Assembly (NCBI RefSeq): GCF_005887635.2
Contig: NZ_CP040819.1
Span: 545,001-586,520 of the forward strand
Direction of reading: 5' to 3'
Source of the DNA: Paroceanicella profunda
GTDB lineage: Bacteria > Pseudomonadota > Alphaproteobacteria > Rhodobacterales > Rhodobacteraceae
DNA length: 41,520 bases
A model generated the notes under the pieces. The model saw nothing but the letters and a program-made list of their open reading frames with translations, was not told the origin of the DNA and searched no databases. Positions 3,297 through 41,520 of the stretch are shown here, in pieces. How positions within the stretch are numbered: the stretch's first letter is position 1; each line of letters opens with the position of its first letter. Position numbers and translations under genes: made by a program.

Positions 3297-3643
3297 GTGT
3301 CGGACTTCTCGGCAAGGGGAACGGCGGTGGTCTCGGCATGGCTGAAGCGCCGGATGCCGGTGCGGGTGATGCGCAGGTGCGAGGGGCAGTTCGGGTCCGG
3401 GCAGGCCACCTCGGCGTCCGTGGACATCCAGTCGTGCGGATGGGTCACGCGTTGCTTGGCCGCCAGCAGCGGCAGCACCGCGGCCAGCGAGTAGATGGAA
3501 AAGCCCTGCCCCGGCGGCAGGTGCAGCATCTCGCCGCGCAGCTCGAAATGGTCTCCCGGCGTCGCGCCGCAGTAGAGATGCGCGCTCTCCGGGGCCACCA
3601 CCTCCACGCGCAGGTCGTAGAGCTCGAAACTGTCGTCGCTCAT
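3293..3643 (-). CDS. TIGR04076-like family protein
   Basis: A 116-residue protein starting at the ATG at 3643, overlapping the GntR stop by ATGA. It begins with a strand (FELYDLRVEVV), has a YCGATPGDHFELRGEML segment and a SIYSLAAVLPLLAAKQR helix, then a Cys-containing turn CPDPNC followed by SHLRITRTGIRRF. This pattern resembles the TIGR04076 family of uncharacterised proteins with the conserved PGQGFSIYSLAAVLPLL core; the assignment is from memory of the family, without a search. The two cysteines in CPDPNC might bind a metal, but no full four-ligand site is visible. Its position directly after the regulator and before the reductase suggests a pathway-specific accessory protein. No biochemical function is known. 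Confidence 0.65.
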   Translation of the reverse strand: MSDDSFELYDLRVEVVAPESAHLYCGATPGDHFELRGEMLHLPPGQGFSIYSLAAVLPLLAAKQRVTHPHDWMSTDAEVACPDPNCPSHLRITRTGIRRFSHAETTAVPLAEKSDT

Positions 3644-4371
3644 GCGGTTTCCTCCGTGAGATGCCGGCGCATGATGGTGAAGGCGCGGCCGATGTCCGCG
3701 CGCAGCGCCGCGCGGGCGGCCACGGCGTCGCGCGCGGCGATGGCCTCGGTGATCTCGCGGTGGAAATGCGTGGCGGAACCGTCCACCTCCGGCGCGTAGT
3801 GGCGCGCGGAGACGCGCAGGTAGGGGCCGGACTGCAGCCACAGGCTTTCGATGATCGGCAGCAGCACCTCGGAACCGGCGGCGCGGTAGATGGTGAAATG
3901 GAAGGCGTGGTTGAGGTCCGCCGCCTCGCCGGACACCTCCTGGTCCCGGATCGCGAGCACGGCGTCGCAGGCATCCGTCAGCTCGCGCAGCCTGTCGATC
4001 TCCTGCGCGCCGATGCGGCTCATGGCCAGCCCCAGCACCTCCGCCTCGATCAGCGCGCGGGCGCGGGCCAGGTCCTCCAGCCGCGCGCGGGTGATGAGCG
4101 GCACGCGCACCGAGCGGTTCGCCATCGGCTCCAGCGCCTGCTCGGAAATCAGCCGCGCCAGCGCCTCGCGCACCGGCATGGTCGAGGTGCCCAGCCGTTC
4201 CGAGAGATCGACGATGCGCAGCACCTCGCCGGGGTCGAACAGCCCCTGGATGAGCGAGCGGCGCAGCTCCGTGTACACCCCGTCCTGCACCGTGCGCCGC
4301 CCCACCGGGCTGAGCGGCTCCCGCCCCGGTGCGGGCGGCGCGTCGCCCGGCAGATCCTTCCTGCGTGGCAT
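3640..4371 (-). CDS. GntR-family transcriptional regulator with FCD domain
   Basis: A 243-residue FadR/FCD-type regulator. A winged helix-turn-helix occupies residues 25-85 (VQDGVYTELRRSLIQGLFDPGE, then LSERLGTSTMPVREALARL). The C-terminal all-helical FCD domain carries the usual metal/ligand positions, with Asp-Leu-Asn-His in DLNHAFHFTIYRAAGS and a later His in THFHREITEAI. It is the first gene of the leftward operon and its start lies about 75 bases from the inverted repeat centred near 4464, the obvious candidate operator. Such proteins normally repress their own operon and the divergent one until a small organic acid or intermediate binds the FCD pocket. It probably controls both arms of the 1-9.4 kb island. 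Confidence 0.92.
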   Translation of the reverse strand: MPRRKDLPGDAPPAPGREPLSPVGRRTVQDGVYTELRRSLIQGLFDPGEVLRIVDLSERLGTSTMPVREALARLISEQALEPMANRSVRVPLITRARLEDLARARALIEAEVLGLAMSRIGAQEIDRLRELTDACDAVLAIRDQEVSGEAADLNHAFHFTIYRAAGSEVLLPIIESLWLQSGPYLRVSARHYAPEVDGSATHFHREITEAIAARDAVAARAALRADIGRAFTIMRRHLTEETA

Positions 4372-4444
4372 GGTTCGGCTGGCCTCCCTCTCCAGGTGCG
4401 GCGCCGCCCCGGGGCCCCGCTTCAGGAAAGACTTTACATACCGG

Positions 4445-4483
4445 TTTGATTTGTGATCAAGATTATTTTGATCAAACATCAAA
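4445..4483. promoter_or_regulatory. AT-rich nested inverted repeat, likely GntR operator in divergent promoter
   Basis: In an otherwise very GC-rich gap lies TGATCAA (4454-4460), a 7-base spacer, and TTGATCA (4468-4474), flanked by TTTGAT (4445-4450) and ATCAAA (4478-4483). The two 16-base halves are reverse complements with only two mismatches. FCD-type GntR regulators commonly bind short AT-rich palindromes of this style. The site lies between gntR (minus) and livG (plus) and could control both. Confidence 0.7.
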
Positions 4484-4498
4484 CAAAGTAAAAGCCAG

Positions 4499-4546
4499 AT
4501 GACACAGGGATCCGACACCCCGCGCCCCGGGCGCCGCCCGACATGA
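4499..4546 (+). CDS. possible 15-residue leader peptide coupled to livG
   Basis: A short frame reads MTQGSDTPRPGRRPT and its TGA (4544-4546) overlaps the livG ATG (4543-4545). The livG start has no clear Shine-Dalgarno of its own, so translation could arrive by coupling from this leader. Its own ribosome site is weak (AAGTAAAAG). This may be chance; confidence is low. Confidence 0.25.
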   Translation: MTQGSDTPRPGRRPT

Positions 4547-5313
4547 CCGCGCCCGTGCTGGAGGCCCGGGACGTGGTGCGGCATTTCGGCGGCAACCGGG
4601 CGGTGGACGGCATGTCCCTCACCCTGGGCGCGGGAGAGATCGTCGGGCTGATCGGGCCGAACGGGGCGGGCAAGACCACGCTGTTCAACCTGATCGCCGG
4701 CAGCCTGAAGCCCGACAGTGGCGAGATCCTGCTCGGCGCCACGCCCCTGCACCGGCTGCCGGCCACGGCGCGCATCGGGGCCGGGCTGGGGCGGACCTTC
4801 CAGATCCCCCGCCCCTTCGCCGGAATGACCGTGCTGGAAAACGTGCTCGCCGCCGTGCAGGGCCAGAGCGGCGAGACCGTCGCGATGAACTTCCTGCGCC
4901 CCGGCCGGGTGCGGGCGGAGGAGCGCCGGGCCACCGCGCGGGCGCTGGAGCTGATCGAGTTCGTCACCCTCTCGCATCTCGCGCATGAGCCGGCGCGGGT
5001 GCTCTCGGGCGGGCAGCGCAAGCTCCTGGAGCTCGCGCGCGCCATGATCGCCGAGCCCTCCGTGCTGCTGCTCGACGAGCCCGCCGCCGGCGTGAACCCC
5101 GCCCTGCTGGAGGTGATCATCGAGCGCATCCTCGAGATCAACCGCCGCGGCGTCACCGTGCTGCTCATCGAGCACAACATGGACATGATCGCCCGGCTCT
5201 GCGGGCGCATCGTGGTGATGGCGGCGGGCCGCGAGCTGGCCGCCGGCACGCCGGCCCAGATCCTCGCCAACCGCGAGGTGATCGAGGCCTATCTGGGCGA
5301 GGTGGGCGCATGA
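4543..5313 (+). CDS. livG: branched-chain-amino-acid-type ABC transporter ATP-binding protein LivG
   Basis: A 256-residue cytoplasmic ATPase. Walker A is GPNGAGKT (38-45), the signature LSGGQ is at 154-158 and Walker B VLLLDEP at 174-180, followed by the switch histidine in IEHNMDMI. The stretch GRTFQIPRPFAGMTVLENV is typical of the LivG half rather than LivF. It is the first full gene of the rightward operon; its stop overlaps the livF start. With LivF it powers uptake through LivHM of the ligand held by the binding protein at 380-1660. Substrate specificity cannot be read from the ATPase. Confidence 0.95.
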   Translation: MTAPVLEARDVVRHFGGNRAVDGMSLTLGAGEIVGLIGPNGAGKTTLFNLIAGSLKPDSGEILLGATPLHRLPATARIGAGLGRTFQIPRPFAGMTVLENVLAAVQGQSGETVAMNFLRPGRVRAEERRATARALELIEFVTLSHLAHEPARVLSGGQRKLLELARAMIAEPSVLLLDEPAAGVNPALLEVIIERILEINRRGVTVLLIEHNMDMIARLCGRIVVMAAGRELAAGTPAQILANREVIEAYLGEVGA

Positions 5314-6044
5314 CCCCGCTCTCCACCGCCGCCCTCGTCGCCGGATACGAGCGCGACCTGCCGATCATCAAGGGCATCGACTTCACCCTCGCCCCGGGCG
5401 GTTTCGTGGCCGTGCTGGGGCCGAACGGCGCCGGCAAGTCCACCTTCGTGAAGGCGATCGCCGGGCTGGTTCCGGTGCACTCCGGCGCGCTGGCGCTGCG
5501 CGGCGCGAACGTGACCGGCCTTCCCCCGCACGCGCTGCTGCGCCGCGGCCTCGCCTTCGTGCCGCAGACCGAGAACATCTTCGCCACCATGACCATCCGG
5601 GAGAACCTGCAGCTCGCCGCCGCCGTGCTGCCCCGCCCCGCCCGGGCCGGGCGCATCGGAGCGATGCTGGAGATGTTCCCGGACCTCGGCCACCGACCCG
5701 GCGCGCTCGCGGGCGGGCTCTCGGGCGGGCAGCGGCAAATGCTTGCCATCGCCCGCGCCCTGCTGGTGGAGCCGCAGGTGCTGATCCTCGACGAGCCTTC
5801 CGCCGGCCTCTCGCCCAAGGCGGTCTCGGAGGTGTTCGAGACGCTGGTGCGCATCAACGCCGCCGGCACGCCCATCCTGCTGGTGGAGCAGAACGTGCGC
5901 GCGGCGCTGAAGGTGGCCGCGCGCGCGGTGATCCTTGTCGACGGCAGGCTGCGCCATGATGCGCCGGCGGCCGAACTGGCGGCAGACCCCGAGATCGGCG
6001 CGCTGTTCCTCGGCGCGGGGCATGGCGGGAGAGCACGCGCATGA
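5310..6044 (+). CDS. livF: branched-chain-amino-acid-type ABC transporter ATP-binding protein LivF
   Basis: A 244-residue ATPase with Walker A GPNGAGKS (37-44), the Q-loop region FVPQTENIFATMTIRENL, signature LSGGQRQ (137-143) and Walker B VLILDEPSAGLSP. The FVPQTENIF and GLSP features are LivF-like. The start overlaps livG by four bases (ATGA) and the stop overlaps livH in the same way, so all are one transcript and coupled in translation. It pairs with LivG as a heterodimer. Confidence 0.95.
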   Translation: MTPLSTAALVAGYERDLPIIKGIDFTLAPGGFVAVLGPNGAGKSTFVKAIAGLVPVHSGALALRGANVTGLPPHALLRRGLAFVPQTENIFATMTIRENLQLAAAVLPRPARAGRIGAMLEMFPDLGHRPGALAGGLSGGQRQMLAIARALLVEPQVLILDEPSAGLSPKAVSEVFETLVRINAAGTPILLVEQNVRAALKVAARAVILVDGRLRHDAPAAELAADPEIGALFLGAGHGGRARA

Positions 6045-6955
6045 TGATACCGCAGATCCTGCTCGAGGGCGCGCTCACCGGGGCGCTGATCGGGCTCGGG
6101 GCCATCGGCCTCACCCTCACCTATTCCATCCTGCGCTTCGCGAATTTCGCCCATGGCGAGCTGCTCACCTGGGGGGCCTATCTCTCGCTCAGCGTGGCGG
6201 GGCTGATCGGGGCGGCCACGGGCGCGCACCTGCCGCCGCTCGATCCGTTCAGCTTCACCTGGGCGCTGCCGGTGGCCGGGCTCATCGCCATGCTGCTCAC
6301 CGCGGCCCTGGCGCTGGCGGTGGACGCGGTGCTGTTCGGCCGGCTGCGCGGGCGCGGCGCGAGCACGATCATCGTGGTGATGGCGAGCTTCGGCGCCTCC
6401 ATGGCGCTGCGCTCGGGGCTCGAATTCCTCTACACTTCGAAGCCGGCCTATTACACCACCGAGCTGCAGATCGCGATGCGCCTGCCCGCCGGCATGCGCG
6501 CCACGCCCGACCAGCTCCTGATGCTCGGGCTCACCGCGCTGGTGGTGCTGGCGGTGCACCTGATGCTCACCCGCACCGGCATCGGCCGGGCCATGCGCGC
6601 GGTGAGCGAGAACCCGGCCCTCGCCGGCCTGGTGGGCATCGACACGCGCAAGGTCATCCGGGTGGTGTGGATCCTGGGCGGCGCCCTCGCCTGCGCGGCC
6701 GGCACCATGTCGGGCCTGCTGGTGCAGATCCGGCCCTACATGGGGTTCGACCTGCTGCTGCCGCTCTTCGCCGCCGCCATCCTGGGCGGCATCGGCTCGG
6801 TGCCCGGCGCCATGCTGGGCGGGCTGATCGTGGGCATCTGCGAGGCTTTCGCCGTGCATCTCATCGGCGCGGAATGGCGCGCGGCGGTGGGCTTCGTGCT
6901 GATCATCCTCGTGCTGCTCGCCCGGCCGAGCGGGTTGTTCGGGAGGGCCGCGTGA
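6041..6955 (+). CDS. livH: branched-chain-amino-acid-type ABC transporter permease LivH
   Basis: A 304-residue inner-membrane protein with about eight hydrophobic helices. Diagnostic segments are TYSILRFANFAHGELLTWGAY near the N-terminus, the cytoplasmic EAA-like loop RTGIGRAMRAVSENPALAGL around residues 185-205, and AAILGGIGSVPGAMLGGL near the C-terminus. These are the standard LivH landmarks. It forms the translocation pore with LivM. The stop (6953-6955) overlaps the livM ATG. Confidence 0.95.
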   Translation: MMIPQILLEGALTGALIGLGAIGLTLTYSILRFANFAHGELLTWGAYLSLSVAGLIGAATGAHLPPLDPFSFTWALPVAGLIAMLLTAALALAVDAVLFGRLRGRGASTIIVVMASFGASMALRSGLEFLYTSKPAYYTTELQIAMRLPAGMRATPDQLLMLGLTALVVLAVHLMLTRTGIGRAMRAVSENPALAGLVGIDTRKVIRVVWILGGALACAAGTMSGLLVQIRPYMGFDLLLPLFAAAILGGIGSVPGAMLGGLIVGICEAFAVHLIGAEWRAAVGFVLIILVLLARPSGLFGRAA

Positions 6956-9908: not shown

Positions 9909-11210
9909 ATGGATCTGCAGTTCAACGTCGCAATGCTTCTGCTGGAGGCAGTGCTCTATTTCGGCGTCATGGCCTTCCTGTTCCGCGTGCGCCACTGGCT
10001 GGGAAGCGGCATCTTCTTCTGCACTCTGGGCTCCATGCATTTCCTGGAGACCTACCTCGCCGCCACCTTCTACGTCAGTGTGCCCGGCGGCTTCATGCTG
10101 TCGCCCGGCTCCACGGTGCTGTTCTCCGGCAAGCTGGTGCTGCTGCTGCTCGTCTACCTGCGCGAGAACGCCGCCGTGGTGCGCCAGCCGATCTACGGGC
10201 TGCTGGTGGGCAACCTGTTCCTCGTCGGCCTCGTGTTCGTGCTGCGGCTGCACGCGGCGCTGAACGCGGACGCGGGCACGAGCCTGCCCGATCTCCCCTT
10301 CCTGGACACGATGGGCTGGTTGATGATCTGGGGTTCCACCCTGCTCTACATCGACTGCCTGATGATCATCCTGCTCTACAACCACCTGGCCAGGCTGGTC
10401 TCGCGGCCGGTGCTGCGCATCTGGCTGGCCTCCAGCGTGGTGCTGACCTTCGATCAGATCGGCTTCTTCGCCGCCCTGCACGTGATCATGGACATGCCCT
10501 ATCCGGTGCTCTTCGGCGGCTGGATGGCCAAGATGGTCGCGGCGGCCCTGTTCTCCGGCCTCTCCGGGGTCTACCTGCGCTGGATCGAGCCGGCGACGAG
10601 CGTGCCCACGCCCCTGCGCCTGGGCGAGGTGTTCGAGGTGCTCACCTACCAGCAGCGCTACCTCGCGCTGGTCGAACAGGCCGGGCGCGACCCGCTCACC
10701 GGGCTGCAGAACCGCACCCGGCTGGAGACGCTGGGCGCGGAAACCGTGGCGCGTCTCGCCCGGGACGGGCGCAGCTTCGGGCTGCTCATCGCCGATGTCG
10801 ACCGCTTCAAGCAGGTGAATGACAGCTACGGCCACGCCGCCGGCGACCAGACGCTGCAGGCCGTCGCCGCCGCGCTGCAAAGCTGCCTTGGCGAGGGCGA
10901 TCTCGCCTTCCGCTACGGCGGCGAGGAATTCGTGGTGCTGTTCGCGGACCACACCGCCGCCGAGGTCGCGGAAGTGGCGGATCAGATCCTGCGCGCCATC
11001 CGCGCCGGCCATTGCCACCCGGCGGACAGCGACCTCACCGCCAGCATCGGCTTCGCGATGAGCCCGGCGGACGGGAGCGACCTCAACGCCCTGTTCCAGC
11101 GCGCGGACGAGCGGCTCTACGAGGCCAAGCGCGCCGGGCGCGACCGCGCGGTGGGGCCGCGCCTCCATGCGGCCACCCGGCACGCGACACCGGGCCTGCA
11201 GCAGCCCTGA
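9909..11210 (+). CDS. membrane-anchored diguanylate cyclase (GGDEF protein)
   Basis: A 433-residue protein. Residues 1-225 hold about six or seven hydrophobic helices forming a membrane sensor not confidently matched to a named family. Residues 255-415 are a GGDEF domain: RDPLTGLQNRTRLE, the metal-binding IADVDRFKQVND (Asp296), YGHAAGDQTL and an intact active loop GGEEF (337-341). The inhibitory I-site RxxD, expected at 328-331, reads GEGD, so the first Arg is missing and product inhibition is unlikely. It should make c-di-GMP at the inner membrane. Together with the EAL protein at 31717-32907 it gives this window both a maker and a destroyer of the messenger. It stands alone and its stop lies inside a palindrome shared with the convergent gene. 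Confidence 0.9.
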   Translation: MDLQFNVAMLLLEAVLYFGVMAFLFRVRHWLGSGIFFCTLGSMHFLETYLAATFYVSVPGGFMLSPGSTVLFSGKLVLLLLVYLRENAAVVRQPIYGLLVGNLFLVGLVFVLRLHAALNADAGTSLPDLPFLDTMGWLMIWGSTLLYIDCLMIILLYNHLARLVSRPVLRIWLASSVVLTFDQIGFFAALHVIMDMPYPVLFGGWMAKMVAAALFSGLSGVYLRWIEPATSVPTPLRLGEVFEVLTYQQRYLALVEQAGRDPLTGLQNRTRLETLGAETVARLARDGRSFGLLIADVDRFKQVNDSYGHAAGDQTLQAVAAALQSCLGEGDLAFRYGGEEFVVLFADHTAAEVAEVADQILRAIRAGHCHPADSDLTASIGFAMSPADGSDLNALFQRADERLYEAKRAGRDRAVGPRLHAATRHATPGLQQP

Positions 11211-12244: not shown

Positions 12245-12556
12245 CGGGCGGCGCTCCACCCGGCAGGGCATGGGACGGCAAGGCGATGCCTGCCGTCGTT
12301 CGCAAGGCGGGACGGAATCATGGATACCTTCCTGTACGGAGGGACCGCCGCACGGCGGCCGGTCGGGCAGTACCACGGACAGACTCCCCCCATCCGCGGA
12401 ACCGCGATAGTGTCTCCCCGCGCAGGACGGCGCATTAATCTAGATTAACCGACCCCCCGATTGTTTCCCTGCCGGAACGGTCCGCCCGTGCAGGCCCGGC
12501 ATGCGCCGGGGCCGGACGGCCCGCCAGGGCGGCAGGCCGGTGAGGCCGCGGCCCGC
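12245..12556. other. 312-base intergenic region with a perfect AT palindrome
   Basis: It lies between two minus-strand genes, the hfq-like gene and the glycosyltransferase. The notable element is TTAATCTAGATTAA at 12435-12448, a perfect 14-base palindrome in a GC-rich setting, suited to a regulator upstream of the glycosyltransferase. Nearer the hfq-like stop is a short hairpin, CCCGGC ATGC GCCGGG (12495-12510), possibly the terminator of that gene. No gene was seen. Confidence 0.5.
12435..12448. promoter_or_regulatory. 14-base perfect palindrome TTAATCTAGATTAA, possible operator
   Basis: The sequence is completely self-complementary, AT-rich and isolated in GC-rich DNA about 190 bases upstream of the glycosyltransferase start. 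This is typical of a dimeric regulator site, but no cognate regulator is adjacent. Confidence 0.4.
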
Positions 12557-31716: not shown

Positions 31717-32907
31717 ATGCCCGTGATGTGCGGCCTCAATGTCCTCGTCATCGACGACGAGCCCTTCATGCGGTCGCTGGTGAGCCGGCTGCTGAGCGTG
31801 ATGGGCGCCGCCTCGGTGACCGCCTGCGCCGAGGGGCGCGCCGCGCTCGACACCGGCGTGTCCGGCATCGACCTGGTGCTGTGCGACCTCAACATGCCGG
31901 GCATGGACGGGCTGGAGTTCCTGCGCCTGCTGGCGGAGACCCGCTACCAGGGCGCCGTGGTGCTGATGAGCGGCGAGAACCCGCGCATTCTGGAGACCGC
32001 GCTGTCGCTGGCGCGCGCGCATGGGCTGGACGTGCGTGGCGCGCTGGCCAAGCCGATCACGCCGGATGCGCTGCGCGCGGTCCTGCCCCGTGCGCTTCCC
32101 GCGCGCGCAGAGGCTCCCGCACCCGGCCCCGGCCCGGAGCCGGACTGCGACGTGCCCTTCACCCCGGAAGACCTCGCGCGGGCCATCACCGCCCGGGCGG
32201 TGGAGGTGCATTTCCAGCCCAAGGTGCGGGTGAGCGACGGGAAGGTGATCGGGGCGGAGGCGCTGGCGCGATGGCGGCTGGACGGCCGGCCCGTGCCCCC
32301 CGCGCGGTTCATCCTGTGCGCCGAGGAAAACGGGCTGATCGACGCGCTGACCGACGTGGTGTTCAGCAAGGCGGTGCGGCAGGCCGGCCGCTGGCAGGCC
32401 GCCGGCCGGAACCTGAAGGTGTCGGTGAACATCTCCGTGCTGTCGCTGGACCGGCTGGACCTGCCGGATTACATCGTCGACACCGCCGCCGCGGCCGGGG
32501 TGGACCCCACCGCGCTGGTGATCGAGCTGACCGAGAGCCGCCTGATGACCGACCTGCGCCGGCCTCTCGAAGTGCTCACCCGGCTGCGGCTGAAGGGCGT
32601 GGGCCTCGCGATCGACGATTTCGGCACCGGCTATTCCACCCTGGAACAACTGCGCCGCATTCCCTTCACCGAGCTGAAGGTGGACCGGCTGTTCGTGGCC
32701 GGTGCGGCGCAGGATGCCACCGCCCGGGCGATCCTGGAATCGAGCGTCGCCCTGGCGCGCGCGCTCGGCCTGGAGACGGTGGCCGAGGGCACGGAGACCC
32801 GGGAGGACTGGGACCTGATGAGCGCCCTCGGCGTGGACATGGTGCAGGGCTTTTTCGTGGCACGCCCGATGCCGGCGGAGGAATTCGACGCCTGGCACGC
32901 CCTCTGA
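31717..32907 (+). CDS. response regulator with receiver and EAL (c-di-GMP phosphodiesterase) domains
   Basis: A 396-residue cytoplasmic protein. The receiver has acidic Asp13 and Asp14, acceptor Asp57 in LVLCDLNMPGMDG and Lys112 in LAKPIT. After a Pro/Ala-rich linker (125-145), the EAL domain has EAL itself (181-183, GAEALARW) and the usual catalytic set: VNIS, ELTES, IDDFGTGYS, LKVDRLF, VAEGTET and QGFFVARP. All metal-binding positions look intact, so it should hydrolyse c-di-GMP. The ribosome site is GGGAGA. It follows the hybrid kinase by 288 bases, which hold no gene but are rich in self-complementary GC segments. It is the obvious output of the sensor and kinase pair. Confidence 0.94.
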   Translation: MPVMCGLNVLVIDDEPFMRSLVSRLLSVMGAASVTACAEGRAALDTGVSGIDLVLCDLNMPGMDGLEFLRLLAETRYQGAVVLMSGENPRILETALSLARAHGLDVRGALAKPITPDALRAVLPRALPARAEAPAPGPGPEPDCDVPFTPEDLARAITARAVEVHFQPKVRVSDGKVIGAEALARWRLDGRPVPPARFILCAEENGLIDALTDVVFSKAVRQAGRWQAAGRNLKVSVNISVLSLDRLDLPDYIVDTAAAAGVDPTALVIELTESRLMTDLRRPLEVLTRLRLKGVGLAIDDFGTGYSTLEQLRRIPFTELKVDRLFVAGAAQDATARAILESSVALARALGLETVAEGTETREDWDLMSALGVDMVQGFFVARPMPAEEFDAWHAL

Positions 32908-33608
32908 CCGGGCCTGCCCGGCCGCGGCACCCGCCTCTGCAACCCGGGCAACCATCTCCCCGGTGGCCGCGCCGGACAGCGGGGCGGCCGCCGGCGCGCC
33001 TTCCCCTGTCCGCCCTCACTCCCGCCCCCCGTCGCCCCTCGCCCGGATGCAGCGGGCAGCGGGCAGCGGGCAGCGGGCAGCGGGCAGCGGGCAGCGGGCA
33101 GCGGGCAGCGGGCAGCGGGCAGCGGGCAGCGGGCAGCGGGCAGCGGGCAGCGGGCAGCGGGCAGCGGGCAGCGGGCAGCGGGCAGCGGGCAGCGGGCAGC
33201 GGGCAGCGGGCAGCGGGCAGCGGGCAGCGGGCAGCGGGCAGCGGGCAGCGAACCTGCTCTGCCCCGGGCCCCGGCGCAAGTCCCGCGGCGTTCTGCGTTG
33301 CGGGTGAACCGGCGCGGTCTGCCGCGCCCACGGGCGCTGACCGGCGGAGGGGGGCGGAGGCCCGCCGTTCAACGACCGGGGGAGGCAGCGAACGCCTGCC
33401 GTTCAACGCCGCGCCCTCGCGCTGTCCCCCCCGGGGCGCCCGGGGCACCGGGGGCGATGTTTCCCGGGGCCGGTCGCGCGCCGTTGACGCCATCGCCCTG
33501 CCGGTGAAGGCGGCCGGGGCTCCCCGGCAAGGCGCCTCGCCACCCTGCGGGGGTGGGCAGCATCGGGGAACCGGCGCCTCCGCGAGCCCTTCCGCAGGGG
33601 CGCGGGTG
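32908..33608. other. 701-base gap between convergent genes, dominated by a heptamer array
   Basis: No gene was seen. The first 140 bases are ordinary GC-rich DNA, then comes the perfect heptanucleotide array (33049-33250), and then about 360 bases in which only a short direct repeat, GCCGTTCAACG (33364-33374 and 33398-33408), was noticed. The reading frames that cross the array are open only because the repeat contains no stop in any frame. Confidence 0.6.
33049..33250 (+). repeat. perfect heptanucleotide tandem array, GCAGCGG x 28.9
   Basis: The unit GCAGCGG (equivalently GGCAGCG) repeats 28 full times plus six bases with no visible variation over 202 bases. It lies 141 bases after the receiver-EAL stop, before the convergent amidohydrolase. 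The unit length is not a multiple of three, and all six frames stay open. Perfect identity suggests recent slippage and a likely length-variable locus. Confidence 0.97.
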
Positions 33609-34838
33609 TCAGGCCTTGGGGCCGGCCAGCCGCTCCGCGCGCGGGCGGCGGAAGGTCTGGCGGCCGGCCTTCCAGCCCGCCAGCACCGGCGCCGGGCCGC
33701 GCAGGGCCGTCACCGGGTCCGGCGCGTCGAGGAGCACGATGTCTGCCGGACCGCCCGCGCGCAGGCCATGCGGCGCGCCCAGCTGTCGGGCGGCGGCGGC
33801 GGCCACCATGTCGAACAGCGCCGCGATGCCGTCATCCGTCGCCACCTGGCCGGCGATGGCATAGAGGTTCGCGATGCGCGCCAGCGACGCGTCCCCGAAC
33901 GGGGTGAACGGGTTGAGGATGTTGTTGCTGGCGAGCGAAACCGTCACCCCCGCCGCGCGCAGGGCCATGGCCGGCGCGAGGCCGCGCGGCACCAGCCGGT
34001 CCACGCCCCGCCCCCCGAGGAAAAGGTCCGTCGCCGGCAGGATGCTCACCGCCACGCCCGCGCGCGCCAGCCCCTCGGCCAGCCGCGCCACCGCCTCCGG
34101 CGCCATGGCCGAGAGCTTGGTGACATGGCCCACGGACACCCGGCCGCCGAGGCCGCGCGCCGCGGTCTGCGCGATGATCTCCGGCAGGATGGAGCCCTGC
34201 GGGTCGAGGTCGAAATCGGCGTGGAAATCCGCCGGCACGCCGAAGCGCTCCGCGAGGTCGAGGATGGCGGTGACATGCGCCACCGGGTCCGGATCGGTAT
34301 AGGGGCAGCCGCCCACGGAACCGGCACCGCCCGCCAGCGCCGCGACGAGGAGCTCCGCGGTCTCCCGCTCGTTGGTGAGGCCTTCCTGCGCAAAGGCGCA
34401 GAGGTCGATGTCGATGGCCTCCGCCCAGGCCGAGCGCCGCTCCAGCAGCGCCGCGAAGGAGCGCAGGCCGGCGCGCGGGTCCACCTCCACGAAGGAGCGC
34501 AGGCGCGTGGTGCCCTGCAGCACGGCCATCTCCAGCACCCGGTCGGCGCGGGCGGAGACGTCCGCCTCGGTGAAGGCGGCCTTGGCCTTCGCGCTGCCGG
34601 TAATCGCCTCGGCCAGCGTGCCCTCGCAGATCGGGCACCGCTCCAGGATGCAGGCCTTGTCGAGGTGGATATGGCTTTCCACGAAGCCGGCAAAGGCGAA
34701 GGCGCCGCCCGCCTCCACCCGCCGCGCGCCGCCGGGCAGGCCCCGCGCCATGGCGGCGATACGCCCGTCGCGCACCCCGATGTCCAGAGGCGCCCCGGGC
34801 CCGACGCGCGCCCCGGCGATGACGAGATCGAATTCCAT
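33609..34838 (-). CDS. cytosine-deaminase-like amidohydrolase
   Basis: A 409-residue metal-dependent hydrolase starting at the ATG at 34838 with a good GGGGGAG ribosome site. It begins MEFDLVIAGARVG and has the metal motif ESHIHLDKA (His56, His58), His206 in DFHADFDLD and His238 in VSVGHVTKL. In CodA the catalytic Asp313 sits in GHDD; here the matching segment is ASNNILNPFTPFGD, so Asn305 replaces it. This suggests a subgroup with a different reaction, or a non-deaminating hydrolase. Other hallmarks such as GPADIVLLDAPDP near the C-terminus are typical. It lies downstream of the iclR gene after 475 empty bases, possibly under its own promoter. Substrate unknown. Confidence 0.85.
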   Translation of the reverse strand: MEFDLVIAGARVGPGAPLDIGVRDGRIAAMARGLPGGARRVEAGGAFAFAGFVESHIHLDKACILERCPICEGTLAEAITGSAKAKAAFTEADVSARADRVLEMAVLQGTTRLRSFVEVDPRAGLRSFAALLERRSAWAEAIDIDLCAFAQEGLTNERETAELLVAALAGGAGSVGGCPYTDPDPVAHVTAILDLAERFGVPADFHADFDLDPQGSILPEIIAQTAARGLGGRVSVGHVTKLSAMAPEAVARLAEGLARAGVAVSILPATDLFLGGRGVDRLVPRGLAPAMALRAAGVTVSLASNNILNPFTPFGDASLARIANLYAIAGQVATDDGIAALFDMVAAAAARQLGAPHGLRAGGPADIVLLDAPDPVTALRGPAPVLAGWKAGRQTFRRPRAERLAGPKA

Positions 34839-35313
34839 GCGGCTCCCCCTGCTGCCCCGCCCCCTTGATGGCACGGCCGCGCGCGGTGAGAAAGCCCCGG
34901 CCGCGCAGGCAGGTCCCCGCCCGACGGAGAGCGGAGCGCATCGGTCTTCCAGCCTGCACCCCAGCAACAGTGCGGGAGGGGATACGCGCGGGCAGCGGGA
35001 CGTCAGGCCGCGCCGACGGACCGCGGGGCGTGGTGCGCCGGACGGCGGGCGCATCGGGCCCCGCGTGCATCGCCGTCGCACTGCGGGAGGGGCGCCGGGG
35101 ACAGGGCGATGCACCGCCCGGCGGCGGGGCGCGCTGGTGCGTCGCCGGTGGGGGCGGAGGCAGTGGCGGGCTCTGCTGCGGCGGGGCGCTCGATACAGAG
35201 GGCGCGCTGCGCGGGCGCAGGATGCCGGGAGCAGGAGCGCCCGGCGGCCGGGCCGGGACACCGGATCGCGCGGATGCGGGAGGCGCCGGGGCGGCGCCGC
35301 GGAGCCGGATCGT
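34839..35313. other. 475-base gap, nothing recognised
   Basis: It lies between two minus-strand genes. GC-rich throughout, with open shadow frames on both strands but no domain-like sequence, clear promoter or strong repeat. It may hold the amidohydrolase promoter. Confidence 0.5.
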
Positions 35314-36113
35314 TCAGGCGCGGGGGCCGAGGCGGGCGCGCAGTTCCTCGGTCACCTCGGTGGCGGCCTCGCGCACCAGGCGGGCCCAGAGCTGCATGCG
35401 GCCCTCGTCGGCGCGGAAGATCGGCCCGGTGACGGAGAGGCCCGCCGCCCGGCTGCGCCCCGAGGAGGGGATGGGCGCGGCCACGCAGCGGATGCCGGGG
35501 CCATGTTCCTCGCGGTCGAAGGCCACGCCCTCCGCCCGCACGCGGGCCAGTTCCTCCAGCAGCGGGCCGGGCCCGGTGTGGGTGTTGCCGGTGAAGCGCT
35601 CGAAGTCGAGGCGCGCGACCACGGCCGCGACCTCCTCCGCGTCGAGGGTGGAGAGCGCGGCCTTGCCCACGCCGGTGCAATGCAGGGGGCGGTGTTGCCG
35701 ATCTGGGAATGCATCCGCACCGCCTTCCGGCTCTCGACCTTGTCGAGATAGACCATCGAATCGCCGCTGAGCACCGCGAGATGCACGGTCTCGCCGGTGG
35801 CGTCGTGAAGGCGGCGCAGGTAGGGCTCGGCCACGGCGCGGAAGGCGTTCTCCGCCCAGGCGCGCGAGGCGAATTTCAGCAGCCGCAGCCCCAGGGAGTA
35901 GGAGTGCCCGCGGTCGATGGTCACCAGCCCCTCGGCGGCGAGATTGGTCAGCTGCCGGTGCAGGGTGCCGCGCGGCTGGCCGGAGACGTTCAGAATGTCG
36001 GTGAAGCGCATCGGCCCTTCGGCCGAGGCAATGATCTCGAGCACGTCGACGGCCTTGCCGAGGGTTCCGGTCTGCCTCTCCGAGCCGAATTCGCCCGGTA
36101 TGCGTCGTCCCAT
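35314..36113 (-). pseudogene. IclR-family regulator, reading frame broken by one missing base
   Basis: The N-terminal part starts MGRRIPGEFGSERQTGTL (ATG at 36113) and contains the winged helix LGKAVDVLEIIASAEGPMRFTDILNVSGQPRGTLHRQLTNL and the start of the ligand domain. At a run of five G at 35685-35689 the frame is lost; adding one base restores NTAPLHCTGVGKAALSTLD and the full IclR effector domain to RLGPRA. The repaired protein would be 266 residues, normal for the family. Because nothing else is damaged, a base missed in the G-run during sequencing is as likely as true inactivation. It is divergent from dgoK-dgoA, with overlapping promoters, so it is probably their repressor, like KdgR-type regulators of 2-keto-3-deoxy sugar acid genes. 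Confidence 0.85.
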
Positions 36114-36276
36114 CGTCGCCCCACCCCCGTTTGCGGACCGCCCGGTCCAGCAGCCCCCACCACCTGCCCGTGCGCCCCGCCGAAACGCGTCCTCGCAGAC
36201 CGCGCCTCCCGGGCGGAGCCAGGCTGCGCGGACATCGCGCGCCCCCGGGCCAGGGCCCCGACACGCGCCCGGTCGC

Positions 36277-36341
36277 TTGACAGGCACCACACGGGCTTTC
36301 TATCGTTCCGGATAACAGAAGTCAATTCCGGATAGTGGAAC
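36277..36341. promoter_or_regulatory. overlapping divergent promoters and IclR operator of the dgo genes
   Basis: Plus strand: TTGACA (36277-36282) and TATCGT (36301-36306), 18 bases apart, serve dgoK. Minus strand: TTGACT (36325-36320) and TAGAAA (36302-36297), 17 apart, serve iclR. Between and after them TTCCGGATA occurs twice (36306-36314, 36326-36334), exactly 20 bases apart, and GTTCC (36305) pairs with GGAAC (36337-36341). The remainder of the 318-base gap from 36114 shows no gene. Confidence 0.7.
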
Positions 36342-36431
36342 TCCCCGACGGGCGATTCCTCCGGGCGAAGGGACAGCGACCATGGTGAGGGCAGGCAGCG
36401 GGCTGACGCAAGCGGCACGGGGCGAGACGGC

Positions 36432-37358
36432 ATGAGCGGGGCGTTCTGCGCCGCGGTGGACTGGGGCACCTCGAGCTTCCGGCTCTGGCTGCTGGACGCG
36501 TCCGGCGCGCCGCTGGCCGAGCGCCGCAGCGACCAGGGCATGTCCGGGCTCACCGGCGGCGGCTTCGGCACGGTGCTGGAGAGCCACCTCGCGGCGCTCT
36601 CCGCGCCCGCGGACCTGCCGGTGGTGGTCTGCGGCATGGCCGGGGCACGGCAGGGCTGGATCGAGGCACCCTATGTCGACACGCCGGCCGCGCTGGACAG
36701 GGTGGCGGACCACTGCGTGCGCCCGGAGCACGCGGCGCGCGAGGTGCGCATCCTGCCCGGCGTCGCGCAGCGCGACCCGGCCGCGCCGGACGTGATGCGC
36801 GGTGAGGAGACCCAGCTTCTGGGCGCCTTCGCCGGGCAGGACGGCGCCGGGCTCGCCTGCATGCCCGGCACGCATTCCAAGTGGGTACGGCTGTCGGGCA
36901 CCCGGATCGACGGTTTCTCCACCGTGATGACCGGCGAGATGTTCGCCGCCCTGGGGCATCACACCATCCTCTCGCATTCGCTCGCGGAGCCCGAGGGCGA
37001 GGCGGCCGCGGCGGCCTTCGCGGCGGCGGTCCGGCGGGCGCTGGCCCGCCCGGAGGCCCTGGTGTCGGAGTTCTTCCGCATCCGCGCCGGCGGCCTGCTG
37101 GGCTTCGCCGCGCCGGGCACGGGCGGTGGCACGCTTTCCGGCCTGCTGATCGGCGCGGAGATCGCCGCCGCCCGGGCACTGGCCGGCCTGCCGGAGGAGG
37201 TGACGCTGATCGCCTCCGGCGCGATCGCGGAGCGTTATGGCACGGCACTTGCCCTTGCCGGCTGCACCACCCGGCGCATAGATGCAGACGGGGCCGCGCG
37301 GGCGGGGCTCTTTGCCGCCGCCACGCGCCTGTGGCCCACCCGGAACCGGAGAGACTGA
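36432..37358 (+). CDS. dgoK: 2-dehydro-3-deoxygalactonokinase
   Basis: A 308-residue sugar kinase of the DgoK family. The N-terminal phosphate motif is AVDWGTSSFRLWLLD (8-22), followed by GMSGLTGGGFGTVL. CGMAGARQGWIEAPYVDTPA, CMPGTHSKWVRL and FSTVMTGEMFAAL are the standard DgoK blocks, and LIASGAIAERYGTAL is in the C-terminal ATP region. It phosphorylates 2-keto-3-deoxygalactonate to the 6-phosphate in the DeLey-Doudoroff route of galactonate use. It is first in a two-gene operon with dgoA, three bases apart, and divergent from iclR. No galactonate dehydratase is present in the window. Confidence 0.94.
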   Translation: MSGAFCAAVDWGTSSFRLWLLDASGAPLAERRSDQGMSGLTGGGFGTVLESHLAALSAPADLPVVVCGMAGARQGWIEAPYVDTPAALDRVADHCVRPEHAAREVRILPGVAQRDPAAPDVMRGEETQLLGAFAGQDGAGLACMPGTHSKWVRLSGTRIDGFSTVMTGEMFAALGHHTILSHSLAEPEGEAAAAAFAAAVRRALARPEALVSEFFRIRAGGLLGFAAPGTGGGTLSGLLIGAEIAAARALAGLPEEVTLIASGAIAERYGTALALAGCTTRRIDADGAARAGLFAAATRLWPTRNRRD

Positions 37359-37361
37359 AGC

Positions 37362-37997
37362 ATGACCCAGAGCACCCCCTGGCCCGCGCCCCGGCGCCCG
37401 CTTGTCGCCATCCTGCGCGGCGTCGGCCCGCAGGAGATCGAGGGCATCGCCGCCGCGCTGATCGAGGCCGGGTTCGAGGCGCTGGAAGTGCCGCTGAATT
37501 CGCCGGACCCGTTCCGCTCCATCGAGCTGGCCCGGCGTCTCGCGCCCGACACTTGCCTCGTCGGCGCGGGCACGGTGCTGGAGCCGGCGCAGGTGGACCG
37601 GCTGCACGGCGCCGGCGGCACCCTGGTGGTGAGCCCGAACGTGGAGCCGGCGGTGATCCGCCGCGCCACCACGCTGGGCATGGTCACCATGCCCGGGGTG
37701 TTCACCATCACCGAGGCCTTCACGGCACTGAAGGCCGGGGCCTCGGCGCTGAAGTTCTTCCCCGCCAGCGTGCTGGGGCCCTCGGGCATCCGGGCGCTGC
37801 GCGCGGTGCTGCCGGCCGATGCGGTGGTGGGCGCGGTGGGCGGCGTGTCGGAGACCGATTTCGCGGCCTATGTGGCGGCCGGAACCGGCGCCTTCGGCCT
37901 CGGCTCCAGCCTCTACAAGCCGGGCTTCACCGCCGAGGAGGTGGGCGTGCGCGCCCGTGCCGCCGTGGCCGCCTGGGACGCCCTCTCCGAGGGCTGA
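37362..37997 (+). CDS. dgoA: 2-dehydro-3-deoxy-6-phosphogalactonate aldolase
   Basis: A 211-residue class I aldolase of the KDPG/KDPGal family. Glu42 in LEVPLNSP is the general acid/base and Lys131 in LKFFPAS the Schiff-base lysine. VAILRGVGPQEIEGIAAAL opens the barrel and FGLGSSLYKPGFTAEEV closes it; the LYKPG ending is typical of DgoA. It splits the DgoK product to pyruvate and glyceraldehyde 3-phosphate. It starts three bases after dgoK with GGAGA as ribosome site. Regulation is expected from the IclR site upstream. Confidence 0.94.
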   Translation: MTQSTPWPAPRRPLVAILRGVGPQEIEGIAAALIEAGFEALEVPLNSPDPFRSIELARRLAPDTCLVGAGTVLEPAQVDRLHGAGGTLVVSPNVEPAVIRRATTLGMVTMPGVFTITEAFTALKAGASALKFFPASVLGPSGIRALRAVLPADAVVGAVGGVSETDFAAYVAAGTGAFGLGSSLYKPGFTAEEVGVRARAAVAAWDALSEG

Positions 37998-38655
37998 GCC
38001 ATCGGCGCGCCGGCCGGGTGCGCCTGCGCCGGCGGGCCGTGCGCCGGGAATGACGGCCAAGGCAAGGCCACGGACGGATTCGGCCCCCCGCCGGGTTCGC
38101 GCGCTCGGGAGCCCGCGCGCCCGGGCGGAGGGCCGTGCGCCAGGCATGACAGCCGAAGGCGGGGCACGGACGGCTTCGGCCCGCCCGGGCCGGGTTCGCG
38201 CGTTCGGGAGCCCGCGCCCGGGCGGAGGGCTGTGCGCCAGGCATGACAGCCGAAGGCGGAACACGGACGGCTTCGGCCCGCCCCGCGCACCGGCCGGGTA
38301 CGCTCGCCCGGGCGGAGTGCCCCGCTGGCGCTGTCGGATCGACGGGACCTTCCGGACGCAACCGGGCAGGCGGCCCGCCCGGGCATGGCCAGGGAGACCT
38401 GCTCCGGCCTCTCGTCAGCCTCCGTCCGTGGTGCAGGCTGCACCGCTGCACGCGCCGGCCGCGTGACGGGCCCGCTTCGGAGCCGCGACACTTTCGGGTC
38501 TGGATTGGATACGATCTTGACATCGTTTTGCATACACAGCACAAGCGGGTGGACAGAAACGCCCTCCGGCGCGCCCCTAGCGCCGCTCCGGGCGCGGCCG
38601 GTCTTCCGCAGTCCCGCGGCAGGTCGCCGCGTCGGGACAGACAGAAGGACCCGCC
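37998..38655. other. 658-base gap with long tandem repeats and an AT-richer promoter area
   Basis: The first half holds three imperfect 90-97 base repeats (38034-38316). At 38490-38550 the base content drops in GC; TTGGAT (38505-38510) and TGCATA (38529-38534) are 18 bases apart, and an inverted repeat ACGAT N6 ATCGT (38511-38526) lies between them. These could form the flavin reductase promoter and operator. No gene was seen. Confidence 0.5.
38034..38316. repeat. three imperfect tandem repeats of about 96 bases
   Basis: Units begin at 38034, 38130 and 38227 and end at 38316 (96, 97 and 90 bases). Shared words are GTGCGCC, ATGAC, CACGGACGG, TTCGGCC and CCCGGGCGGA. The second and third share the strongest block, GCGCCAGGCATGACAGCC. 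On the minus strand the block reads like the GTCATGCC-type dispersed repeats known from alphaproteobacteria, so it may be a member of a genome-wide family. Confidence 0.8.
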
Positions 38656-39318
38656 ATGAGTGCAGACGCCCCGCGCCGCCGCTTCGACTTCGACACGCTG
38701 AGCCCGCTCGAGCGCTACAAGCTGCTCATCGGCTCGGTCGTGCCGCGCCCCATCGCCTGGGTGACCACGGTGGACCCGGAGGGCCGGGTGAACGCCGCGC
38801 CCTACAGTTTCTTCAACGTGCTGTCGCATGACCCGGCACTGCTGGCGCTCGGGGTGGAGAACCACGCCGACATGCGCCGCAAGGACACAAGCAACAACAT
38901 CCGCCTCACCCAGGAATTCACCGTGAACATAGTGGACCACGCGCTGGTGGAGGCGATGAACGTCACCGCGGTGCCCTTCCCGCCGGAGGTGGACGAACTG
39001 GCCGCGGCCGGGCTCACCGCCGTTCCGGGCGCGCGCGTGGGCTGCCCCTACATCGCCGAGGCGCCGGTGGCGCTGGAGTGCCGCAACTACACCACGCTGT
39101 CCATCGGCCGCTCACGCGAGATCGTGCTGGGCGAGGTGCTGGCGATGCACATCCGCGCGGACCTGGTGAACGAGCGCCTGCACGTGGACCCGGCCGGGCT
39201 GGACGCGGTGGGCCGCCTGGGCGGACAGGGCTATTCCACCCTGCGTGACCGGTTCGACCTGCCCTCGATGAGCCTCGCGCGGTGGCAGGAAAGCCTCGCC
39301 GCGACCGAGGAGAGCTGA
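38656..39318 (+). CDS. flavin reductase family protein (FMN-binding split barrel)
   Basis: A 220-residue protein. The motif VVPRPIAWVTTVDPEGRVNAAPYSFFNVLSHDPAL (28-63) is the FMN-binding core of the flavin-reductase-like split-barrel family. NYTTLSIGRSREIVLGEVLAMHI follows, and the C-terminus has RLGGQGYSTLRDRFDLP, as in many stand-alone members. It likely binds FMN and may reduce it with NAD(P)H or act on a small molecule; no partner monooxygenase is visible nearby. The ribosome site AAGGA is good. It ends 89 bases before the second heptamer array. Confidence 0.9.
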   Translation: MSADAPRRRFDFDTLSPLERYKLLIGSVVPRPIAWVTTVDPEGRVNAAPYSFFNVLSHDPALLALGVENHADMRRKDTSNNIRLTQEFTVNIVDHALVEAMNVTAVPFPPEVDELAAAGLTAVPGARVGCPYIAEAPVALECRNYTTLSIGRSREIVLGEVLAMHIRADLVNERLHVDPAGLDAVGRLGGQGYSTLRDRFDLPSMSLARWQESLAATEES

Positions 39319-39407
39319 GCCCGGGGGCCTGCCATCTGTGGCGCTCAGCCGGGGGCAGCCACTGGCCACCTGCCGCAGGCGGCACTCGCCCGATAGGGGT
39401 CGCCTTC

Positions 39408-39528
39408 CGTCTGCCGTCTGCCGTCTGCCGTCTGCCGTCTGCCGTCTGCCGTCTGCCGTCTGCCGTCTGCCGTCTGCCGTCTGCCGTCTGCCGTCTGCCG
39501 TCTGCCGTCTGCCGTCTGCCGTCTGCCG
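39408..39528 (-). repeat. perfect heptanucleotide tandem array, CGTCTGC x 17.3
   Basis: On the plus strand CGTCTGC repeats 17 times plus two bases without variation; on the minus strand the unit is GGCAGAC. It starts 89 bases after the flavin reductase stop and ends six bases before the stop of the minus-strand binding protein gene. The unit shares the GGCAG core and unit length with the 33049-33250 array but lies on the opposite strand. Confidence 0.97.
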
Positions 39529-39534
39529 GGAGGA

Positions 39535-41079
39535 TCATTCCGTGCGCAGGTTGGCGCGCCAGCGTTCGGTGAACAGGGCCTTCTTCTGCCGGTCGGTGGC
39601 GGCGAGCAGGGCGGCGGAGAGCGGGATCAGCCGCAGGATGGAGGCGGCGCCGTCCGGCATGTCCAGATCCGCCTCCTCCGGGTCTCCGAAGCGCACGATC
39701 AGCCGGGAGCGGATGAGCGCGGCGCGCCCCGCGTCCGACAGCATGAAGTCCAGCAGGGCCGCCGCCGCGCGGCCATGCGGGGCCTGCCGCGGATGAAGGC
39801 GGCGCGCGACAGCACCAGCGTATAGTCCTGCGGGCGACCACCGCGAGGTCCGGGTTCTCCTCCGCGCGGGCCAGCGCGTAGGAGCCGAGGATGTTGTAGC
39901 CGATCAGCAGCCGCCCGGAGGCCACCGCGTCGGCGATCTCCAGCGAGCAGCAGGTGGCGATGGCCCCGGTGCGCCCGAAGGCCTCCAGCAGGCTGCCGAA
40001 GGTGGTGGCCTGCTGCGCATCGGCGAAGGCGAAGAGATAGCCCAGCCCGGAGGCCTCGATGTCATAGGTGCCCACCCGCCCGGCGAAGCGGGTGTTCGCC
40101 GGGCGCAGGAGGTCGATGAGGTCGAATCGCGAGCGCGGCGCCTCCTCGGGGGAGACCAGCCGGCGGTTGTAGATGATCACCGCCGGCTCACGCGTGACAC
40201 CGAAGAGCTCGTTGCGCCAATTCTCCGCCAGCGGCAGGGCGGTGGTGGCCTCGGAGAGATGCGGTTGCGCGCAGCCGTCGTTCACCAGCTTCACCTGCTG
40301 GTCCACCGCCGAGCTGATGACGAGATCCGCCACCGGCGCCCGGCCGGCGCAGCCCGCCGCCGTCTCCGCCCCCAGCGGGTTCGAGCCCCATTGCTCATAG
40401 CGCACGCCCAGGTCGGCGCGGGTGGCGAGGAAGGCGCGCAGCAACGGCGCGAAGGCGCCGATGTCCGCCGCCCCGCGCACCACCAGCCAGCCCTCCGGCG
40501 GCGCCACGCCGAACTCGGCCACCGCCTCGGGCACCGAGGGCGTCGGCGCGCCCCGCCCGATCGGCCCGCGCGCCGCCTCCGGCACGGCGGCGTCCCGCGC
40601 CCCTCCGGCGTGCGGGCCATCAGGGGACGGGGCGGTGCCCCCCTCCGTGCATCCTGCGGCGCTGCCGGACCCTGCTTGCCGCTTGGCGAGCCTTCCTCCC
40701 CTGCGTCTCGCGGCGCCACCGGGCTTGCGTGCCGCGCGGGGCGGCGGCCTCACCCGCGCTTCGCGGCGCCGCCAAACCCTGCGTGCGGTTCGGCGAGCCC
40801 TCCTCCCGCGCGCCCTGCGGCGTTGCCGGGCCTTGCGTGCCGCTTGGCGAGCCTTCCTCCCCGGCGTCCCGCAGCGCCGCCGGGCCTTGCGCGGCGCGCG
40901 GCGCGGCGGCCTCACGCGCGCCGGTGGGGGGCGAGGCGCCCTGCCCTGCGGCGGGAGTGACGGGGGCCGCGACGCCCCGGGCCGGCAAAGCCGTCTCCTG
41001 CGCGGGACCCGGGCGCGGCAGGGCCAGAGCAGGGCGGCGAGGCGAGCGAGCAGGCGCGGAGTGTCCGGCCGAAAGTCAT
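39535..41079 (-). pseudogene. ABC-type periplasmic substrate-binding protein, interrupted by about six apparent single-base losses
   Basis: The ATG at 41079 has a good ribosome site (GGAAACAGG). A signal peptide (MTFGRTLR, an Ala/Leu helix, then PRPGPAQE) can be read only by adding two bases between about 41040 and 41065. A repeat-rich linker follows, broken near 40721-40723 and at the C-run 40638-40643. The binding domain is continuous from PEGWLVVRGAADIGAFAPLLRAF to PDLAVVA; two more missing bases, at G-runs near 39832-39834 and 39790-39792, restore PQDYTLVLSRAAFI and the C-terminus ending RWRANLRTE. The domain resembles iron/phosphonate-type extracellular solute-binding proteins. It follows a sensor kinase gene, an arrangement seen in TctDE-like operons. 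All breaks are deletions, so sequence error should be excluded before calling it dead. Confidence 0.75.
40630..40900 (-). repeat. degenerate 54-57 base coding repeats in the binding-protein linker
   Basis: Read across the frame breaks, about five 18-19-residue units of the form RDAGEEGSPSGTQGPAAP lie between signal peptide and binding domain (variants QGAREEGSPNRTQGLAAP and RSAGEAAAPRGTQ). They are rich in Gly, Ala, Glu, Pro and Ser and would make a flexible spacer. Confidence 0.65.
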
Positions 41080-41185
41080 CCTGTTTCCCTTCGAAGGAGG
41101 CCAGGGGCCGCGCGCGCGCTCCCGTCGCGTGCCGCGGGGGCCACGGGCCGCCGCGTTCCGGACACGCCGTCCGGACGGCGCGCGG

Positions 41186-41520
41186 TCATGCTCCGGCCTC
41201 CGGCGGGCCGGGCACGGCGGGCAGCACGAGCGCGGCTTCGAAACCGCCTTCGGCGCCCGGGCGAAGGCCAGCCGGCCGGAATGCGCCCGCGCCACGGCAT
41301 GCACGATGGCAAGGCCCAGGCCGGCGCCGTCCGGCGTGACACCGGCGGCGCGAGAAGCGGGCGCCGGCATCGCGCCAATGGTCCTCGGGCGGGCCGGCGC
41401 CACGATCTCGCACCCGATGGTCGCGGTGCCGGGCGCCGCCGCGCTCACACGCAGGGTCACCGGCAGGATGCGTGGCGGAAGGCGTTGTTCACCAGGTTCT
41501 TGCAGGCCTCGGTGAGCGAG
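41186..41520 (-). pseudogene. sensor histidine kinase, C-terminal ATPase domain only, with several apparent lost bases
   Basis: The gene runs in from beyond the window end. SLTEACKNLVNNAFRHA is the N-box of a HATPase domain. Across four frame changes one can then read VTLRVSAAAPGTATI, VRDRGAGPPEDHWRDAGARFS, GVTPDGAGLGLAIVHAVARAHSGRL (the G2 box) and EGGFEAALVLPAVPGPPEAGA before the TGA at 41188-41186. Every shift fits one or two missing bases, near 41475, 41408, 41357 and 41254. The domain resembles TctE-type tricarboxylate sensor kinases, and the following gene encodes a binding protein. A response regulator is probably just outside the window. Confidence 0.7.

Follow-up and report, generated by a model that had tools for sequence, protein, structure and literature searches.

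Intergenic repeats with units of 6–11 bp are strongly over-represented in a few genomes, according to a 2014 survey by Mrazek and colleagues (PMC4060949). The variable-number tandem repeats (VNTRs) of Burkholderia pseudomallei include 85 arrays that lie at most 40 bp 3' of a coding sequence, as against 19 that lie at most 40 bp 5' of one, and their copy numbers mutate at more than 1e-5 events per locus and generation (PMC1853098). A contact with the polymerase has been proposed for the period of 7–8 bp, an idea quoted in PMC4692102 and PMC4679880, and the birth of long perfect 7–8 bp arrays in bacteria, together with their favoured period, is unsettled. Here we describe two perfect heptanucleotide arrays of the Mariana Trench piezophile Paroceanicella profunda D4M1T (PMC7002103), and the wider set of arrays in its genome of 5,468,583 bases. 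Both lie in the last 41,520 bases of the 586,520-base plasmid pD4M1A (C2 in the coordinates below), the stretch analysed as a whole and called the window throughout. We consider it probable that the arrays stem from a lineage-specific, local amplification of tandem repeats that turns over within the genus and is tolerated at the 3' ends of genes; the two window arrays look like ordinary cases of a process found across Paroceanicella and Oceanicella, and not like a shared switch. The words "tandem" and "repeat" do not occur in the main text of the paper that describes the strain (PMC7002103), and our literature searches returned no paper on such repeats in either genus among the matches listed.

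Survey of perfect arrays

Array 1 (window positions 33049–33250, plus strand) spans 202 bp and consists of 28.9 copies of GCAGCGG, which is GGCAGCG in another rotation. Array 2 (39407–39528) spans 122 bp and consists of 17.4 copies of CCGTCTG on the plus strand, or GGCAGAC on the minus strand. Tandem Repeats Finder (TRF) and a separate script each gave a match of 100% for both, which confirms the perfection that an earlier reading of the sequence (the original prediction) had ascribed to them.

The genome was sampled in 95 stretches (1.898 Mb), six of them from C3–C5 and the others on a grid with steps of about 50 kb along C1 and C2, and none was chosen for its repeats; C6 and C7 lie outside this sample, as does the grid point C1:1900001–1920000, which holds a known array and is overlapped by a selected stretch. 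Counting as an array any perfect repeat with a unit of 5–12 bp and a length of at least 45 bp, we found 24, of which 12 have a period of 7 bp, seven of 8 bp, three of 6 bp and two of 9 bp. Their copy numbers range from 6.4 to 50.1 with a median of 17, and scaling from the sample to 5.47 Mb gives an estimate of about 70 array loci in the genome. At this density the window would be expected to hold about 0.5 arrays, and the two found there thus form a mild cluster.

No two of the 24 units are alike once rotation and strand are allowed for, which argues that no array family has been copied around the genome. The GGCAG core that the original prediction took as the mark of a possible family is found, on either strand, in only two of the 24 units, the rate among random intergenic heptamers being 0.034. 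A search of the genome for the pattern (GGCAGNN)4 gave 143 matches, all accounted for by seven arrays (by arithmetic from the 100 matches listed and the array lengths): on pD4M1A the two window arrays, a second assembled copy of array 2 and a GGCAGGC array at C2:273256, and on C1 a GGCAGGT array at C1:1676862 and GGCAGAG arrays at C1:1893067 and C1:1900505. GGCAG does read in the sense of the nearer gene at both window arrays, as had been noticed, but this is not a rule, since the G-rich strand relative to the nearer 3' end is in sense in eight arrays, antisense in eight and tied in five. The motif and the sense that the two window arrays have in common are most simply a coincidence.

Neither of two structural features considered for the arrays was retained. 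A G-quadruplex is not a general feature, as a GGG or CCC run is present in only 15 of the 24 units, and hairpin formation does not set the arrays apart, 70-nt arrays having a mean folding energy of -23.9 kcal/mol against -33.0 for random local heptamers (standard deviation 22). The GGGNATC word known from other bacteria occurs in none of the 24 units, read by eye, nor in either window unit.

Position relative to genes

Genes were called with our own codon-usage script, which finds 79% of the sequence to be coding as against 83–90% in a published table, so that some of the DNA counted as intergenic must represent missed genes. Three of the 24 arrays lie at the edges of stretches and were excluded from the placement test. 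The remaining 21 include 14 in gaps between convergent genes and seven in gaps between tandem genes, and none is divergent or genic. As convergent gaps make up 22.2% of intergenic bp, the excess there is significant (P=1.6e-5), and the lack of arrays in divergent gaps is likewise unlikely to be due to chance (P=0.005). The sample contains 170 convergent gaps in all. The repeatable convergent layout claimed from the window alone is thus upheld across the genome, and the even spread through genes and promoters that was to have spoken against it was not seen. At 3' ends the arrays come as close as 1, 20 and 24 bp to stop codons, and one array shares 5 bp with the 3' end of a called gene; in the seven tandem gaps, a start codon is never nearer than 113 bp.

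When five selected stretches and one 13-mer array are added, the widened set comprises 29 loci with both flanks, of which 18 are convergent, 10 tandem and one divergent. Longer tandem repeats detected by TRF lean the same way more weakly: repeats with a period of 13–30 bp are convergent in 35 of 119 cases (P=0.024) and those with a period above 30 bp in 25 of 81 (P=0.029), both against 21% of bp. No common flanking motif was accepted: the enrichment of the most over-represented 7- and 8-mers in the adjoining 80 bp, for instance CCGGGGGC in 11 of the 29 loci against 2.8 expected, is uncorrected for the number of words tested.

Probable turnover between sister species

The congener Oceanicella sp. 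SM1341 offers orthologous gaps in which the fate of individual arrays can be followed. Nine such gaps were read, and eight contain no perfect array, namely those matching the AGCCAAG, CCTCAG, CCTGCCA, AGGGCAG, CACGGCAG and CGTCGGG arrays, the CTTCACG compound array and window array 2. The gap matching CACGGCAG contains an imperfect 15-mer in 3.3 copies, and that of window array 2 measures 216 bp here against 16 bp in the congener. The ninth gap holds 11.9 copies of CTCGGCCA, an unrelated 8-mer, where the present genome has 22.1 copies of GCTGAGG. This is best read as an independent birth in the same gap, which would be in line with the frequency of arrays in the present genome, where 14 of them occur among 170 convergent gaps. 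The nine gaps are not a random sample: six fell in congener stretches that had already been sampled, and three were picked as short, which favours empty sites.

For 12 of the 13 arrays queried, a single congener contig carries both flanks, and three of these 12 are among the nine gaps read. For the CCGCCTCT array (15.5 copies), whose gap is outside the nine, a single congener match spans both flanks and leaves room for only about 60 bp. The L145 GACTGCCG array, window array 1 and the L143 array were excluded from the orthology comparison, as their flanks did not match one place. In the one case examined in the reverse direction, the gap of the present genome (L227) that corresponds to a congener array (L202) is free of arrays. 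In our own reading of the alignments around arrays, some of which are misplaced at their left ends, the intergenic sequence is largely unalignable, and promoter-like stretches are recognizable just before the downstream gene in two of them.

Distribution among other genomes

Controls comprised 20 stretches from ten genomes of the same family (0.40 Mb) and 79 loci from other alphaproteobacteria (1.62 Mb). In these 99 stretches (2.02 Mb) there is no perfect array with a unit of 5–12 bp and a length of at least 45 bp, whatever the unit, and chance is accordingly not a credible source of the window arrays. The GGCAGNN pattern was detected in three of 101 genomes: the present one, the congener and a genome of another alphaproteobacterial family (G049). 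The arrays are thus nearly restricted to Paroceanicella and Oceanicella among the genomes tested. In G049, a genome of 1.9 Mb, one locus (L205) carries 13.3 copies of TCTGCCC at 10218–10310 and 7.7 copies of TCTGACT at 12288–12341.

The general load of tandem repeats is also raised in both sister genomes, with 329 TRF repeats per Mb here and 308 in the congener (contigs below 1 kb, L209–L212, being outside the congener set), while the figures for the two control sets are 85 and 38. Twelve control stretches with a G+C content of at least 67% reach 125 per Mb, so that base composition accounts for part of this general load and not for the arrays. The share of intergenic DNA taken up by tandem repeats is 8.5% in the present genome and 3.8% in the congener, as against 0.18% and 0.15% in the control sets, although the control values are diluted as the gene caller finds fewer genes there. 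As to placement in the congener, four of the five array loci read there are convergent, four of these five loci having come from the GGCAG pattern search; in 11 unselected congener stretches one short-period TRF repeat is divergent, and repeats with a period of 13–30 bp are convergent in six of 11 cases.

Anatomy of the arrays

Most arrays end sharply, with no trace of the period past the perfect core on either side in 17 of the 29 loci. The compound array at L144:13270–13639 passes from CTTCACG to CTTCACT, then to nine copies of CTCCACT and nine of CTCCGCT, with one substitution per step, and such a ladder of units is the hallmark of mutation combined with amplification of blocks in situ. One such single-substitution step is present in L156. 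The 8-mer array at L145:4159–4310 and the 6-mer array at L164:17635–17790 are perfect at one end and degenerate at the other, which suggests growth from one side.

Mechanisms of array formation

The diversity and perfection of the units, the position bias, the empty orthologous gaps among those read, and the change of units in place with block re-amplification are direct observations, which local amplification with subsequent tolerance would explain as follows. A local word of 6–9 bp, mostly of 7 or 8 bp, would multiply into a head-to-tail row of tens of perfect copies, probably by slipped-strand synthesis or tandem duplication in the course of replication or of gap repair. Fast loss or replacement would then leave sister species with no arrays in common at the sites read. 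Arrays would persist where promoter, leader and coding constraints are absent, that is, downstream of genes and chiefly between convergent genes, so that tolerance, in the sense of selection against arrays in 5' regions, would probably be the main cause of the layout. Most arrays would presumably be without function.

Several observations weigh against this account. The convergent excess persists if all bp closer than 113 bp to a start codon are set aside (P=9e-4), or closer than 200 bp (P=0.006), and also if convergent and tandem gaps alone are compared away from start codons (P=0.005); selection against 5' regions therefore does not fully account for the preference for convergent over tandem gaps. 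An 8-mer array (L145:4159–4222, eight copies, outside the unselected sample) lies in a divergent gap, and among 31 TRF repeats with a period of up to 12 bp, a set that admits imperfect repeats, 17 are convergent, 10 tandem and four divergent. In the 11 unselected congener stretches (0.22 Mb) perfect arrays are absent, whereas the density of the present genome would predict 2.8. The copy-number spectrum is a further difficulty: at period 7 there are 13 runs of 2.2–2.5 copies, none of 2.5–4, six of 4–10, some of which adjoin long arrays, and 11 of at least 10, whereas slow stepwise slippage should have left a larger number of short precursors. Simple loss of a repair function does not explain the arrays of the genus, as the PolA 5'-nuclease domain, RecJ and MutS all score above their family cut-offs (SbcCD, RecG, RadA and DnaE2 being outside this check). 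The same copy classes hold four, two, one and six runs at period 8, and periods 6 and 9 do show short runs (96 and seven of 2.5–4 copies, respectively), which probably come from codon-sized repeats in genes. The two-humped spectrum seems a better fit to fast, multi-unit growth than to slow slippage.

The main rival, which would turn the first and last of these difficulties to account, is that convergent transcription itself drives amplification. Supercoils, R-loops or stalled forks would be left where polymerases meet head-on, and there gap repair would copy a stretch of 7–8 bp many times over in a burst. The word would be a random local choice, a single event or a small number of them would yield tens of perfect copies, and the replication or repair polymerase would dictate the period. 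Arrays would accordingly be born long and at convergent gaps, which is consistent with the excess that survives removal of 5'-proximal bp, with the empty class of 2.5–4 copies, and with the convergent share of short perfect arrays (14 of 21) against that of longer-period repeats (60 of 200). However, a third of the arrays (seven of 21) lie in tandem gaps and one outside the sample is divergent, and soft selection against arrays in regulatory DNA could produce an equal bias. We therefore regard a driving role of convergent transcription as possible yet unlikely.

A further reading, in line with the original prediction that the arrays may act at RNA 3' ends or as polymerase barriers, would make them functional 3'-end elements (terminators, insulators or polymerase barriers). 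The position bias is consistent with such a role, and the region 32800–39700 of the window contains one intrinsic-terminator-like site against 1.5 expected by shuffling, a scarcity that might make another means of termination useful; neither window array has an intrinsic terminator (a G+C-rich hairpin followed by a T run). Yet the arrays are absent or have another unit in all nine orthologous gaps read, which leaves the proposal without support, and they share no word, no strand rule and no strong common fold. A general function of this kind is accordingly improbable.

Still less probable is that a dedicated enzyme, such as a templated reverse transcriptase acting in the manner of telomerase, writes the arrays. 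Long perfect arrays with few intermediates might be expected of it, and the chromosome encodes a Drt8-type reverse transcriptase (L175:7524–9161, PADLOC, E=2e-148). However, 24 different units among 24 arrays speak against a single template, and the RVT_1 domain is present in 12 of 21 genomes, including the host and the congener, of which the other 10 have no GGCAGNN array, although this is only a partial test.

Neighbouring genes and the assembled record

Both window gaps are convergent. Array 1 lies between a plus-strand gene for a receiver-EAL protein (31717–32907; Pfam PF00072 and PF00563), which ends 141 bp before it, and a minus-strand amidohydrolase gene whose 3' end points toward it (33609–34838 by gene call, the PF07969 match being to the open reading frame 33609–35261). 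Array 2 lies between a plus-strand gene for a flavin reductase-like protein (38656–39318; PF01613), which ends 88 bp before it, and a minus-strand gene region for a solute-binding protein (39535–40650, the high end being estimated from the length of the congener gene), whose 3' end is 6 bp away. Only 39535–39744 of the latter is called in this record, while the congener copy (L061:12773–13882) encodes a solute-binding protein with a frame open throughout. An IclR-type regulator gene on the minus strand (35314–36264) is likewise called only partly in one frame.

The first 6,755 bp of pD4M1A (1–6755) repeat its last 6,748 bp (579773–586520, equivalent to window 34773–41520) with 99.7% identity, and this is an untrimmed terminal overlap of the published circular record, which duplicates several genes and array 2 (second copy at pD4M1A:4630–4751). 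Between the two ends there are 18 gaps, each of one or two bases, and no substitution. Given these gaps, residual long-read indel errors are likely in the partly called IclR-type and solute-binding-protein genes. An assembly or basecalling artefact, for which the untrimmed ends and the small gaps might be cited, can be dismissed as a source of the arrays with near certainty, as both assembled copies of array 2 have 17.4 units, the separate congener assembly also has perfect 7–8-mer arrays, and the D4M1T assembly was made from PacBio plus Illumina reads (PMC7002103).

The window also contains an imperfect 97-bp repeat in 2.6 copies (38030–38283) and an imperfect 54-bp repeat in 4.6 copies (40656–40903), both part of the general tandem-repeat load. 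No part of the window matches Rfam at the gathering score, a Pfam query of one further region, with its reading frame unchecked, gave no match, and a search of a plasmid collection yielded nothing stronger than weak gene-level matches, in four records.

Comparison with known repeat systems

The estimated 70 loci of this genome, the orthologous sites of the sister species that lack an array and the measurable preference for convergent gaps make the birth, position and turnover of such arrays directly testable, and the arrays are candidate typing markers for a deep-sea lineage. They belong with the known bacterial arrays of 6–9-bp units, that is, VNTRs or simple sequence repeats, being head-to-tail, perfect or near-perfect repeats of 5–11-bp units that lie mainly between genes (the 21 placed arrays, with three at stretch edges unplaced), and their distinctive marks are the diversity of units, the high copy number and the convergent placement. 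Phase-variable contingency loci, in which the array lies in a gene or promoter region, are a different matter, as none of the 21 is genic or divergent.

The VNTRs of B. pseudomallei similarly occur in a high-GC genome, have units mostly of 6–9 bp, are mostly intergenic and show a 3' preference; unlike the present arrays, they mostly have 4–10 units, and 36.3% are duplicated elsewhere, whereas here the median is 17 and none of the 24 is repeated (PMC1853098). The GGGNATC heptamers of Xanthomonas and Nostoc are also intergenic arrays of particular lineages, but they represent one G-quadruplex-forming motif, most often in four units, with 16% of the arrays convergent, and in sister species most of their sites still have the same genes on either side, in contrast to the many units, the 14 convergent arrays among 21 and the nine sites with no unit kept that we describe (PMC4692102). 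The TAACTGA repeats of Beggiatoaceae are likewise intergenic direct repeats of a heptamer, and some Bacteroidetes have long arrays that their relatives lack; TAACTGA is, however, one fixed word located mostly just before start codons, at the opposite end of the gene from the arrays described here (PMC4679880). The repeats of Borgs are perfect, have virtually all units unique and are recently formed, and a close relative lacks one intergenic Borg example at the corresponding position. They differ in residing in giant archaeal elements, in having A-rich units (18–36 nt in the examples given) and in being about half genic, as against none of the 21 arrays placed in the present genome (PMC9879509).

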